Below, piece by piece: positions 7,100-29,461 of a DNA stretch of 64,000 nt. The notes under the pieces were generated by a model. It ran no database searches. It had not been told where the DNA came from and worked only from the letters and a program-made list of their open reading frames with translations. A program made the position numbers and the translations under genes. The first letter of the stretch is position 1, and every line of letters starts with the position of its first letter. The stretch comes from Spiribacter salilacus (GTDB taxonomy: Bacteria > Pseudomonadota > Gammaproteobacteria > Nitrococcales > Nitrococcaceae), in contig NZ_WJPP01000002.1 in assembly GCF_009649225.1 (NCBI RefSeq), positions 1 through 64,000 on the forward strand, given 5' to 3'.

Positions 7100-7248
7100 T
7101 ATGAATACAACATCCCTGTTCCCCAGGATACACCCGTGGTATTGCTTGCCGGGCCACGCCAGGCCGGCAAAACAACCCTGGTACGCCAAATCGCCCAACG
7201 GGGATGCATTACTTGACCCTGGATGATGACCTGACACTAAAGCGTTGA
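7100..7248 (+). pseudogene. Remnant of an AAA_14-type ATPase N-terminus
   Basis: A plus-strand frame reads IPVPQDTPVVLLAGPRQAGK, then TTLVRQIAQRG, including Walker A GPRQAGKTT. A one-base frameshift at about 7203 then shifts the frame to MHYLTLDDDLTLK before a stop. The pattern is the N-terminal P-loop region of the same family as the intact ATPase at 3734-4918. The rest is missing, replaced by the truncated AbiEii gene running the opposite way. No convincing start codon is present. It is a degraded, non-functional fragment. Confidence 0.7.
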
Positions 7249-7379
7249 TGAAGATCGTGCTCAAACATGTTGATGGCCGTCCCGCCTTTCAGGGCAAAGC
7301 GGGTTTCCTTTGCCAGCACCGGCAGAATATCCACCAGCAATTGCACCCGATCGCTGTAGCGCTTATCCCAGCTGTTCAT
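7209..7379 (-). pseudogene. Truncated AbiEii/AbiGii-type toxin gene
   Basis: ATG at 7379 begins MNSWDKRYSDRVQLLVDILP and continues to FALKGGTAINMFEHDL, the conserved N-terminus of AbiEii-type nucleotidyltransferase toxins (GG-T-A-x-N is the start of the NTase motif). Homology ends at about 7251, followed by a few unrelated residues and a stop at 7209. A full toxin is about 290 residues, so most of the catalytic domain is gone. It overlaps the end of the AbiEi gene by 17 bp, the normal operon order. Confidence 0.75.
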
Positions 7380-8181
7380 CGAGGTCTCCCGGCAGGGTGA
7401 TCTGATAGCGGGGATGCAAACGGCCACCGGAGACCAGTGATCGTTTACCACGACCGAGGTCCACACCATCGAGCGACAGGTGCGAAAACCAAGCATGCCG
7501 GTGACGTTCGCCCAGGGCGAGAAACAAGCGCTTAGCCTTGATGCTGTGGCATCGTCGCAACAACACCTCAAGCCGCTTTGGCCGCAGCGTGGCCATGCCC
7601 TGCATCAATGCGTCGACCTCATAGACCCCACTGGCATCAGACGCCTCGGCACACAATTCCAGCATGGCCCGCTCCGGTGTTGAACACACTAGCATCCGGC
7701 TCGGCACTGCTTCACGCCGCTCCAGGCCCTGGTTCAGCAACGTCTGATCCGATGTCTCATCGGTAAGGGAAGGCACTGGCAAATCAAAAGGCCCCTTGCC
7801 GCAGTACTCGACACCTTCAACCAACGGCAACTTGCGCACCCACCCGGGCACACGATCCGGCCCGTAGAGGGTGATCACGGCAGCTTCGCCCAAGCGCAGG
7901 TAGTGCTCATGCCCCAACCAGGCCAAGGCAAAGCGCCCGCCGACATGCAGTGACAAACCCTCCATCCATTGCAGCGTCCACACCACACCTTCCCACTGCA
8001 GGGAGCCGCCTTTGCGCATATACACACCACGGGCCGGGGATACCAGCCAGCCGCTATCCACATAACGGACCACTAGGCTGCTGGAATAGCCATGCGCTCT
8101 TAGCCACCGGCTGGAAACCACGCCGGTATCACCGAGCCCAGCCAGTAGATGGTTTAATTTTTTCTCATTTTGATCACTCAT
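7363..8181 (-). CDS. AbiEi-type antitoxin/transcriptional regulator (type IV TA)
   Basis: 272 residues. The N-terminal winged helix (LNHLLAGLGDTGVVSSRWLRAHGYSSSLVVRYVDSGWLVSPARGVYMRKG) is followed by the AbiEi C-terminal domain (ALAWLGHEHYLRLGEAAVITLYGPDRVPGWVRKLP). In AbiE systems this protein represses its promoter and antagonises the AbiEii nucleotidyltransferase. The start at 8181 (MSDQNEKKLNHLL) was chosen from the domain boundary; the frame is open further upstream but that part is not conserved-looking. Its toxin partner is truncated, so the gene is an orphan antitoxin and may persist as a regulator or protect against related toxins (inference). Confidence 0.82.
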   Translation of the reverse strand: MSDQNEKKLNHLLAGLGDTGVVSSRWLRAHGYSSSLVVRYVDSGWLVSPARGVYMRKGGSLQWEGVVWTLQWMEGLSLHVGGRFALAWLGHEHYLRLGEAAVITLYGPDRVPGWVRKLPLVEGVEYCGKGPFDLPVPSLTDETSDQTLLNQGLERREAVPSRMLVCSTPERAMLELCAEASDASGVYEVDALMQGMATLRPKRLEVLLRRCHSIKAKRLFLALGERHRHAWFSHLSLDGVDLGRGKRSLVSGGRLHPRYQITLPGDLDEQLG

Positions 8182-9207: not shown

Positions 9208-9223
9208 ATTCCCACTCAATCGT
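9208..9223. repeat. Left attachment-site copy of the guaA island
   Basis: ATTCCCACTCAATCGT is identical to 29446-29461. Read on the minus strand this copy encodes T-I-E-W-E followed by TGA, i.e. the GuaA C-terminus, as expected for an integration site that duplicates the end of guaA. Confidence 0.75.
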
Positions 9224-13653: not shown

Positions 13654-14304
13654 ATGTTCGTTAGAGGATATCTCCGAGCTTCCACTATTGATCAAAATGC
13701 AAATCGAGCGCGTCAATCGCTCGAGGATTTCTGTCGGTCAAAAGATAGACCCGTTGCCGCATGGTATGTAGAGAATGCCAGTGGTGCCACACCAGACCGT
13801 CGGGAACTACGGCGTTTGCTAGCGGACGCACAGGTTGGTGATATCCTTTTAGTTGAGGGAATTGATCGTCTTTCTCGCCTTCCACGAGAAGACTGGGACG
13901 CCCTTCGAAATGAGATAGAGTCCAAGGGCTTGCGCGTAGTTGCCATGGACTTACCGACAAGCCACATCGCAATGAATATGGTTAATGGGGAAGATGAATT
14001 CACCGGCCGTATGCTCGACGCTATCAACCGAATGATGCTGGATATGATGGCTGCCATTGCTCGCAAGGATTTTGAAGATCGCCGCCGTCGCCAGGCAGAA
14101 GGTATCCGAAAGGCACAAGATGCTGGAAAATACCAAGGCAGACCGGTGAACGAAAAGCTTCACAAGGATATTCGTGATCTCTTAGGTGTGGGATTATCTG
14201 TGCGGAATATCGCATCAAAGCTCGGATGCAGTACAAGCACTGTTCAAAAAATCCGCCGTACCGTGATACCAATGCCGCAATTTGAGGAGGTTCCAAATGA
14301 ATGA
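13654..14304 (+). CDS. Serine recombinase (resolvase/invertase family)
   Basis: 216 residues. The N-terminal catalytic domain has the nucleophile Ser10 (YLRAST) and the motif LLVEGIDRLSRLPREDW with conserved Arg residues. The long helix carrying FTGRMLDAINRMMLDMMAAI and the GRP signature (YQGRPVNEK) lead to a C-terminal helix-turn-helix (LLGVGLSVRNIASKLGCSTSTVQKI). It would cut and rejoin DNA at paired sites through a 5'-phosphoserine link; dyads upstream are candidate targets. It overlaps the following small membrane protein gene. Confidence 0.92.
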   Translation: MFVRGYLRASTIDQNANRARQSLEDFCRSKDRPVAAWYVENASGATPDRRELRRLLADAQVGDILLVEGIDRLSRLPREDWDALRNEIESKGLRVVAMDLPTSHIAMNMVNGEDEFTGRMLDAINRMMLDMMAAIARKDFEDRRRRQAEGIRKAQDAGKYQGRPVNEKLHKDIRDLLGVGLSVRNIASKLGCSTSTVQKIRRTVIPMPQFEEVPNE

Positions 14305-14587: not shown

Positions 14588-15094
14588 TCACCAACTTTTT
14601 TAAATTCTTAAGAGCCCTAATTTCCAACGTCCTCGAGAGCATTCGCTCTAAACTCCTTAAGGCATGAAACCTTTCCGTTTCCACTGCTTTGAGAAAATCA
14701 CCGATACCATCACTACCGATCTACACCGGTTGCTAATGCATCATATTTCTAGTCAATCTGACCCAAATTTTCCCTCATTTTCAATCAATTCCAAATATTC
14801 CATAACCTGACGACTTTTCCTAAATATTCAAAATTCAAAAGACTGCAACGACAGTTCTCATATAAAAAATATTAATTTATTCAAATGAACTAAATAACCA
14901 TGCGTGAACATGAATTGTAAAGATTCATGAAAAAGCTGAGATGCCTTCGTAAAGTCGTCTAACCAAAATGGATTCGACTCCCTCAAGGATCCCATCTCCG
15001 CTCACAATCAGGTCACACACGCTGGAGCCGAGAAAATAACACTCGGGAGACTTGGTTATTCTAGTGCCATCATAAAACATAGGAGTTTAGTAAA
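14588..15094. other. AT-rich non-coding region upstream of the HUH-motif gene
   Basis: No gene is seen in about 500 bp. Near its end CCGAG-aaaataaca-CTCGG (15028-15046) and the overlapping AATAAC/GTTATT pair (15035-15040, 15055-15060) can form alternative hairpins about 35 bases before the gene. Such a hairpin next to an HUH protein is where a nick or origin site would be expected (inference). Confidence 0.4.
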
Positions 15095-15610
15095 ATGGTT
15101 AAAAATATAACAATTGATGCAGAAAAGATAATTGAGAAATATAAAAAAGAAATTCAGGAATTCATAATCTCAAGACATCATGATTACATGATCACTCTAA
15201 CATTCAAAGAAGATGTTAATGAAATCACTGCATCCATGATACTTTCGAGATTTATCAAAAGAATGAATGAATGTTATTTTGGTAGAAGATCAAGAAAGAG
15301 CATAGTTGTAACTCCAATATTAGAAAGAAATGCCTTTTATGGAGTGCATTATCATATTCTAATACAAGACCCCCGACCACTAAGTAACAAAAATGGGAAC
15401 AAAGATATAAAGGATATTATTCGAGATAACTGGAATAATTCCTCTCCTATTACTGGTGATGTATATCGAGCTTCAGGGGGTTCTGAAGTATGGTGTGAAG
15501 AGATATATGACCCAAAAGGACTCTCTGAATATCTTACGAAGCAATTTGAATTGTGGACAACGGATTACATTGATTTCAATAACTATACAACGGAATATCG
15601 GAAAAATTAG
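15095..15610 (+). CDS. Small HUH-endonuclease-like (Rep/relaxase-type) protein
   Basis: 171 residues. Three motifs occur in the order and spacing of rolling-circle Rep proteins: motif I YMITLTFK (31-38), motif II HYH in FYGVHYHILI (His85, His87), and motif III Y-x-x-K in LSEYLTKQ (Tyr146, Lys149). The family chemistry is single-strand nicking with a 5'-phosphotyrosine link. The gene is strikingly AT-rich compared with its neighbours, with AGGAG before the ATG. No helicase domain is present, so it would be a minimal nickase. It could be a plasmid, phage or transposon Rep relic that is still intact. No database check was possible. Confidence 0.6.
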   Translation: MVKNITIDAEKIIEKYKKEIQEFIISRHHDYMITLTFKEDVNEITASMILSRFIKRMNECYFGRRSRKSIVVTPILERNAFYGVHYHILIQDPRPLSNKNGNKDIKDIIRDNWNNSSPITGDVYRASGGSEVWCEEIYDPKGLSEYLTKQFELWTTDYIDFNNYTTEYRKN

Positions 15611-15689
15611 ATTTCCTTACTGTATTAAAAGAAATCATATCTAAGAGATGACTTGTAAATTTGCTCCCACTAGTTTGATTGGTTATAAG

Positions 15690-15698
15690 TTATCCACA
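15690..15698 (+). promoter_or_regulatory. DnaA-box match
   Basis: TTATCCACA, a perfect consensus DnaA box, lies between the HUH-motif gene and the Sel1 gene. A single perfect match in a window of this size can occur by chance, so replication relevance is only suggested by the neighbouring gene. Confidence 0.3.
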
Positions 15699-27668: not shown

Positions 27669-27974
27669 ATGAACAAACATGATCTACTTAACCAAACGTA
27701 CGAACTACTATCACGTCTCAATATCGTGACCAGTGAAAACCAATTTTCTGTAAAATGGCTCGGAAAAACAGAAGGTTACATTCGATCTATGCGAGCTAAA
27801 GGTTCTGAGCCGAGCAAGGAAGCCCTTGCAATATGCGCGCTGCGACTGCAGGCCGCCACAGCAGATCTTTACCCATATTTGGATCCGGACGATCACGGTC
27901 AATTTTTGCGACTTGCGTACCAAATACGGGATGAAGTTTTGGGTAGCGTGGATATTACGATAGTGGAGGACTAA
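27669..27974 (+). CDS. Small protein next to the integrase (DUF6626-like)
   Basis: 101 residues from ATG 27669. The pattern QTYELLSRLNIVTSENQFSV, then KWLGKTEGYIRSMRAKGSEP, resembles small DUF6626-type proteins with a helix-turn-helix-like core; recognition is from memory and unverified. It converges on the integrase gene, overlapping its stop by four bases. Such small proteins beside integrases often serve as excisionase or regulator, but that is not shown here. Confidence 0.55.
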   Translation: MNKHDLLNQTYELLSRLNIVTSENQFSVKWLGKTEGYIRSMRAKGSEPSKEALAICALRLQAATADLYPYLDPDDHGQFLRLAYQIRDEVLGSVDITIVED

Positions 27975-29299
27975 TTGTGCTCAATCAGTATACCGTCATG
28001 CATCACCACGCCCGCAAGTGCGGCATCTTCAACATATTGATCAAAAAGATGGAAATATGTCTTTCTAATTTGTTGCTCACTCGTCCCCGCAATCGCCGAC
28101 AACTGCATGGTGTTGATTTTACCAATATTAATATGACGGGTAATGTAATAATGTCGAAATGAGTACGGCACCAAGGCACCCTGCTTGTTCTGGATACCCA
28201 AATCGTCAAGAAGCTTTTCAAACCCCTTCAAGTAGATACGCCGAGACATTGGTGTATTAGTATTCAGGCGAAAAATCTTTGAAGTGGATTCTGGTTTTGG
28301 AAACTGGCCATCCGTCTCTTCATAACGTCGAAGTTGCGCCATTTTGAGTAAAAGGAAGAAATTCGAGGAATCCAAAAACTTTACCACTCGTGATTTCCGG
28401 ACTTTTGAGGACTCTGCGCGCACCTGCACTCGAGTCAGGGAATGAAATTCTTGGTCTTCCGGATTTGTTACGGATGACCCAGAATCTGGGACAGACCCTG
28501 TAATCACCTTCTCCTCGAGGCTATGGTCTCGCCATTCCATTGCTAGCGCTTCCCCAATACGCAGACCAGTCTCGAGCAGCAGCATAAAAAAACAGGAGGT
28601 CAACAGATCTCCGTACTCGACGCCATTTGTACTCTGCTCCGCTGACTTAATTTTAGCCATCAAATGGGCGCGAATCCGTTGAGCTTGTTCTTCAGTGAAG
28701 GAAGCTCGCCGGACATCCTGATTCTCAAACTCCGCTGCCCGGATTTTGCTCATATTCAGCTTAGCCAAGTGAAATTTGTTCCGTTCGTACAACCATCGGA
28801 CTAACGCATTAAACGAGGCCTGCTCATTACGAATCGTGACCAGAGATGCACCTTGGTCGAGTCGCCAACGCTTGAAAGCCTTGCCGCTATCAAGATGCAA
28901 ATTCCCTAGAGGGGTCTGATCGCCAAGAAATTTTTGCCAATGGGATAAATGGGTTTGGATTGTTCCGAATCGGCCAGCACCTATACCCTCGAGGACGTTG
29001 CCTGTAGCAACTTCTGTGGCTTTATCGTCGAGGTATTCTTTAATCGCTGATGCCACTGTTAAGCGCCGAGAAGGCAGAATCCCATGGTTTTGATATTGCG
29101 AGACAATATCGTAAGCTTTCGCTATCGCAGCATCGCGATCCTGCGTTCCGAGACTTTCTCGTTCGTACCCCCCCTGCCCCTGCACCCGATATCTTAGCCA
29201 CCAAACCTTTCCGCGCAGAAAGATAGTCGCTAACCCCATAATCGTTTGCTGAGTGTCAGTGTTTCTCGGGTTTCGTATTGGTATAAGCATGCCTTGCAA
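27971..29299 (-). CDS. Tyrosine recombinase/integrase of the guaA island
   Basis: About 442 residues. The C-terminal catalytic domain has Arg247 (LLETGLRIGEALAMEW), Arg382 in the R-H-x-x box (PYSFRHYYITRH) and the nucleophile Tyr415 (IRKTYFHLF). The first His of the usual H-x-x-R is Tyr379, and the downstream LGH-type His is replaced (AGTS). It would join the island to the 3' end of guaA, which lies 145 bp away. The start is uncertain: the frame opens at TTG 29299, but ATG 29239 (MGLATIFLRGKVWW) begins the conserved part. Confidence 0.88.
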   Translation of the reverse strand: MQGMLIPIRNPRNTDTQQTIMGLATIFLRGKVWWLRYRVQGQGGYERESLGTQDRDAAIAKAYDIVSQYQNHGILPSRRLTVASAIKEYLDDKATEVATGNVLEGIGAGRFGTIQTHLSHWQKFLGDQTPLGNLHLDSGKAFKRWRLDQGASLVTIRNEQASFNALVRWLYERNKFHLAKLNMSKIRAAEFENQDVRRASFTEEQAQRIRAHLMAKIKSAEQSTNGVEYGDLLTSCFFMLLLETGLRIGEALAMEWRDHSLEEKVITGSVPDSGSSVTNPEDQEFHSLTRVQVRAESSKVRKSRVVKFLDSSNFFLLLKMAQLRRYEETDGQFPKPESTSKIFRLNTNTPMSRRIYLKGFEKLLDDLGIQNKQGALVPYSFRHYYITRHINIGKINTMQLSAIAGTSEQQIRKTYFHLFDQYVEDAALAGVVMHDGILIEHN

Positions 29300-29461
29300 C
29301 TATTGAACTGGAAAAACTCAACTATTGTGCACTTTTTTGTGTAAGTCAAGATTCTGGTTCAATGTTTTCAATAACTTACGAGGTAGCGTGTAACAAATGT
29401 GGAAAATTTTTTTCCAAAAAATCAATGACTTACATTCTAAAAACTATTCCCACTCAATCGT
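29300..29461. other. Integrase-guaA intergenic region with right att copy
   Basis: The right copy of the 16-bp att repeat lies at 29446-29461, covering the last guaA codons. The AT-rich bases between (29300-29443) should carry the integrase promoter and, by analogy, arm-type binding sites; none is identified with confidence. Confidence 0.65.

Follow-up and report, generated by a model that had tools for sequence, protein, structure and literature searches.

The window analyzed here, a stretch of 64,000 nt, contains an ORF at positions 15095 to 15610 of the forward strand which starts with ATG and encodes a putative HUH endonuclease of 171 aa. A Shine-Dalgarno-like AGGAG motif was found ahead of it on the same strand (positions 15081 to 15085). 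The gene is located inside a 20-kb island which is integrated at guaA and carries an integrase and type I restriction-modification genes.

The GC content of the gene is 31.8%, while the island has 45.1% and the region between 30 and 60 kb has 54.9%. It is the lowest-GC stretch of 516 bp in the entire window, and thus as AT-rich relative to its surroundings as the original prediction had stated. The homologous genes of the related loci are mostly AT-rich as well (34–41% GC compared to 45–62% for their own loci), with the exception of L009, in which the HUH gene has a GC content of 55%. Since AT-richness is a habit of the HUH family, it is by itself no mark of a recent arrival in this genome.

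Sequence and predicted fold of the HUH protein

For the protein, a motif I of the sequence YMITLTFK, an HYH at residues 85 to 87 and a Y146-x-x-K149 had been proposed. All of these were found at the named residues in the translation of the ORF, with TLTF of motif I at residues 34 to 37 and Tyr146 as the predicted catalytic tyrosine. In the Pfam search, REP_ORF2-G2P (PF23343) was the sole family matched at an E-value of up to 1 (E = 7.3e-6). The score of 26.6 bits is slightly below the curated cutoff of 27.8 bits for this family, which was passed by three relatives (L005, L141 and L142). In a second line of profile matches, PHROG 3419 ("rolling circle DNA replication initiation") was found for the window protein and was matched by five of eight members, with a best E-value of 7e-7. 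The NCBIfam profiles gave no match to the window protein. Profiles of Y1_Tnp, IS91 transposases and Inovirus Gp2 were likewise not matched in Pfam at E up to 1, nor were relaxase profiles in Pfam and NCBIfam at the same threshold.

The alignment comprised eight members with 25–33% identity to the window protein. The residues T34, L35, F53, F62, G63, S66, K68, E77, H85, H87, W113, I137, Y146 and K149 were found to be invariant in all eight, so that the two histidines, the tyrosine and the lysine of the predicted motifs are conserved in the homologues. The profile matches and the catalytic residues kept across diverged homologues support the proposed HUH/Rep assignment. Judging from its sequence, the gene product is best explained as a REP_ORF2-G2P-type HUH endonuclease of minimal size with a single catalytic tyrosine.

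Structure prediction was less informative. The models were built from one or two sequences and were too weak for an assignment of the fold (pLDDT 58, pTM 0.54), with strands at TLTF and HYH and a helix carrying Tyr146 that follows a strand, in the order of HUH folds. Named viral fold matches were mostly replication proteins, including one ORF2/G2P protein, with E-values of 0.004 or worse. The matches in the PDB were AAV Rep and IS608-type transposases mixed with unrelated ferredoxin-like folds; the transposases of ISHp608 and ISDra2 were among the fold matches. In these lists no single HUH family was clearly ahead, and HUH proteins were not separated from other ferredoxin-like folds. A sequence search of solved structures yielded nothing useful.

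Sequences flanking the gene

An alignment of the DNA before the gene across the loci revealed a shared sequence which had not been expected. Eight of the 10 loci have the heptamer CTTGGTT on the sense strand, at most 400 nt upstream of the gene. In dinucleotide shuffles it occurred in 0.28 loci on average and in 3 at most, and no 7-mer with at least three G/C was common to more than 5 loci in the shuffled sets. Of the two loci lacking it, L139 has the near-match CTTGGCT, and the most distant of the set, L009, has no match. In the window, the heptamer is part of the candidate nick site CTTGGTTATTCTAGTG (positions 15051 to 15066, + strand), which is the only exact copy of the site pattern in the whole genome. 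This conserved short sequence is probably where the enzyme cuts.

In L004 and L005, and in no other relatives, CTTGGTT runs on into an intact TTTAATAGTG, at the place where the window has TTATTCTAGTG. The sequence of these two loci equals the f1 sequence TTCTTTAATAGTGG and matches ten bases of the f1 origin TTCTTTAATAGTGGACTC exactly. Within the f1 nick-site core, the cut made by M13 protein 2 lies between TT and AA (PMC11765958).

A second box, AACGCnnnnGGCGATT, is located ahead of CTTGGTT in most relatives. The distance between the two boxes ranges between 36 and 84 nt; it is 66 to 84 nt in most relatives and 36 nt in L142, whose box reads AACACATAAGGTGACT, with changes in both arms of the small inverted repeat it contains. 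In the window, this box could not be recognized by sequence. From the similar distance to the candidate nick site (74 nt), the diverged sequence at positions 14976 to 14992 (+ strand) is tentatively proposed as its counterpart. The paired boxes are absent in nine more distant HUH relatives, and a general sequence bias is therefore an unlikely cause. When viral contigs were scanned for CTTGGTTTAATAGTG and for the two-box pattern, no locus encoding a relative was found, so short patterns alone fail to find the module.

The original prediction also described overlapping hairpins just before the gene. A hairpin with the stem CCGAG/CTCGG and the 9-nt loop AAAATAACA is present at positions 15028 to 15046 of the forward strand and ends 4 nt short of the candidate nick site, so that its place was well chosen; as a structural signal it is weak in this one sequence. 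For the window by itself, a strong hairpin signal was rejected, since regional folding is not above chance (z = −0.4 to −1.1); for the 32 nt directly before CTTGG a p-value of 0.04 was obtained. A hairpin with an unrelated stem ends 0–1 nt before CTTGG in L004, in L005 and at one of the sites of L006 (L006a), and only this adjacency of the conserved site to hairpins in homologues gives weight to the hairpin of the window. Significant hairpins were found at 4 of 10 sites at most. The combined support (Fisher p = 0.006, for a region picked after the data were seen) is modest because the other loci are without a good hairpin.

Downstream of the gene, a perfect DnaA box TTATCCACA is located at positions 15690 to 15698, as predicted. 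It is the only one in the window, where 0.48 are expected by chance, and the looser pattern TTWTNCACA occurs four times compared to 5.3 expected. No DnaA box was found at the same place in any relative, and on the basis of the expected counts and this absence the box was rejected as a part of the system. The Sel1 gene behind the HUH gene, which had been considered as a possible part of the element, was not seen next to the HUH gene in any of the relatives, and its membership is thus unsupported.

The guaA island and the islands of the relatives

The island of the window is flanked by a direct repeat of the guaA 3′-end. The left att repeat ATTCCCACTCAATCGT (16 bp, positions 9208 to 9223, + strand) marks the island boundary, and the right att repeat (16 bp, positions 29446 to 29461, + strand) is located at the 3′-end of guaA. 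Beside guaA, a tyrosine integrase (PF00589) is encoded on the reverse strand (positions 27971 to 29299), which together with the repeat identifies a genomic island at this gene. The cargo comprises type I restriction-modification genes, a serine resolvase, DUF genes and the Sel1 gene, and no Rfam family was found in the island. The serine resolvase (positions 13654 to 14304, + strand) shares 62% identity with a resolvase located directly ahead of the L143 HUH pseudogene and is, by this similarity, a probable neighbor from the same element type.

For an empty-site comparison, guaA was located in 12 related genomes, in none of which the left flank could be aligned beside it. In another genome of the genus, a second guaA 3′-end which is 97% identical to that of the window was found (L175; G005:C1:1252574-1252771), about 12 kb from the guaA gene of that genome. 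Because of this second 3′-end, a guaA island probably moved between the two species.

Homologues of the HUH protein are rare. The sampled genomes of the genus other than that of the window contained none; two were found in the order and one weak match in the sample of the phylum, and several occur in the Halomonas family; the wider sample of the order contained a set of distant HUH proteins. No convincing relative was detected in 50,697 phage and 72,556 plasmid records, and protein searches of viral contigs yielded none.

In the relatives, the gene was found in different islands. An integrase and an XRE gene adjoin it in L004, L005, L006 and L141, and the integrase of the window differs from those beside the HUH genes of the relatives. 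L140 is located by a tRNA-Leu gene, L142 by a tmRNA gene and L009 by a tRNA-Ser gene. Neighbors of antiphage type are Gabija in L140, a type II retron-like pair in L139 and PARIS AriAB in L009, and in L143 a HerA-type ATPase is among the neighbors. The HUH gene is broken by stops or an IS66-type insertion in 2 of 10 relatives (L140 and L143).

In L006 (3543-12525) and L141 (3660-9520), the XRE, integrase and HUH genes lie inside a flagellin gene, between an intact copy and a remnant missing the first codons, with CCAGCGCCAAGGAYGATGC or a sequence close to it at the junction. Since an intact flagellin gene is found on one side and a 5′-truncated one on the other, integration at this site is suggested to replace the larger part of the flagellin sequence. 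An element of this kind is inserted in the MSHA pilin cluster in L004 (6434-10973) and L005 (5238-12355), between two pilin genes with a common 5′ coding part, which suggests that integration swaps a surface protein here. The integrase of L005 is interrupted by an ISL3-like transposase gene.

L006 also contains an extra HUH copy (7108-7632), which is interrupted by one stop, has an upstream site of its own and is located ahead of the intact copy; it is either a tandem duplication or a successive insertion. A transposase-like HTH gene is located divergently across the upstream site in L006 (6475-6987), L139 (6056-6505), L142 (7981-8373) and L143 (5391-5858) and may be a partner of the HUH gene. 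No recognizable counterpart was found upstream of the window gene.

Proposed role and comparison with known systems

A nickase with its own conserved target, which is found repeatedly in integrative islands, is best explained as a module which replicates or processes the DNA of the island after excision. The target of the HUH protein would be the region of about 120 bp before the gene. The protein would bind this region and melt the hairpin, and Tyr146, in a presumably metal-dependent reaction, would cut the top strand at CTTGGTT and remain attached to the 5′-end; rolling-circle replication would be primed by the free 3′-end. Given the location of the gene in islands integrating through tyrosine recombinases, its most likely use would be to multiply or process the circular form of the island after excision, before helper-aided spread or reintegration. 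That the nickase acts at the predicted site (positions 15051 to 15066) is, in our view, highly probable, whereas we would give a role in replication of the excised island about an even chance; the statement as a whole, an island nickase acting on its own upstream origin, is rather more probable than the replication step taken separately.

A single-strand nickase from a plasmid or phage origin captured by the island, as originally proposed, comes close with respect to the nickase. The origin of the gene is seen differently, since relatives occur in chromosomal islands and no convincing phage or plasmid relative was detected: it appears as a recurrent module of integrative islands and not as a one-off capture. 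The phage and plasmid records contained no relative in which the module drives replication.

The protein could alternatively act as transposase in a small transposon of the single-strand type (IS91/ISCR- or IS200/IS605-like), with the hairpin and CTTGGTT as the element end and defence genes gathered by one-ended transposition. An AT-rich gene beside different cargo each time would fit such an element, as would the two tandem copies of site plus gene in L006 and the ISHp608 and ISDra2 matches, but the fold matches do not discriminate, and the Yx2K spacing with TLTF in motif I is Rep-like. The HUH gene is present as a single copy in its own genome, with one exact site and no second element end found, and neither a Y1 transposase nor an IS91 family was matched at E up to 1, which makes a transposase unlikely. 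It is, in our opinion, improbable too that the gene is a relic of a filamentous phage or rolling-circle plasmid which was once captured and that it has no current function in the island: the base composition strongly unlike that of the island, the two broken relatives and the broken extra copy in L006 would be expected of a relic, but the gene and site of the window are intact, the catalytic residues are kept across 25–35% identity together with the upstream site, and no phage or plasmid source was found. HUH relaxases are commonly encoded beside oriT in integrative and mobilisable elements, and the gene and its site are located in integrative islands, but a mobilization relaxase acting on the upstream region as oriT, with transfer of the excised island by a helper conjugation system, is similarly improbable given a protein of 171 aa with no second domain, profile matches to replication initiators and to no relaxase family in Pfam or NCBIfam, and no convincing relative in the plasmid collection.

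The reading as an island nickase bears on the long-standing question of how chromosomal islands which carry neither conjugation nor phage genes are copied and spread. In the present case, the enzyme is very small and comes together with a predicted cut site of 16 bases, and the same pair recurs across islands differing in integrase and defence cargo. A more tentative and rather doubtful extension is that a minimal-HUH clade, together with a two-box origin of its own upstream of the gene, acts as replication module in antiphage-carrying integrative islands with guaA, flagellin, pilin, tRNA and tmRNA targets; these would form a new class, probably satellites, that multiplies by rolling circle after excision.

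The window protein is similar to the REP_ORF2-G2P (PF23343)/PHROG 3419 proteins, including the gene II initiators of the f1/M13 type, in motif order and profile matches, and the f1/M13 cut-site core TTTAATAGTG is also found upstream of the gene in the two relatives mentioned above. Protein II of f1 has a length of about 400 aa and is thus longer than the single-domain window protein of 171 aa. The 5′ part of the f1 site is GTTC, compared to CTTGG in the sites described here, and the f1/M13 gene is part of a phage genome, whereas the genes of the window type are located in integrated islands with integrases. Among guaA-integrated islands, that of the window is typical in its 16-bp repeat at the guaA 3′-end and the adjacent tyrosine integrase and may differ by the HUH gene with its own upstream site.

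In Pseudomonas, inovirus Gp2-like proteins have been listed as probable core components of islands which are integrated at tmRNA and carry defence genes (PMC12595487). As here, a Gp2-type protein recurs there with a tyrosine integrase, HTH genes and defence systems, and the island of L142 is located at a tmRNA gene as well. The window protein differs in matching PF23343 and no Inovirus Gp2 profile, and its island is integrated at guaA; for the Pseudomonas islands, the part of the study available describes no target site. The wider idea is not new; what the window adds is a smaller, distinct family together with a specific sequence predicted as its target.
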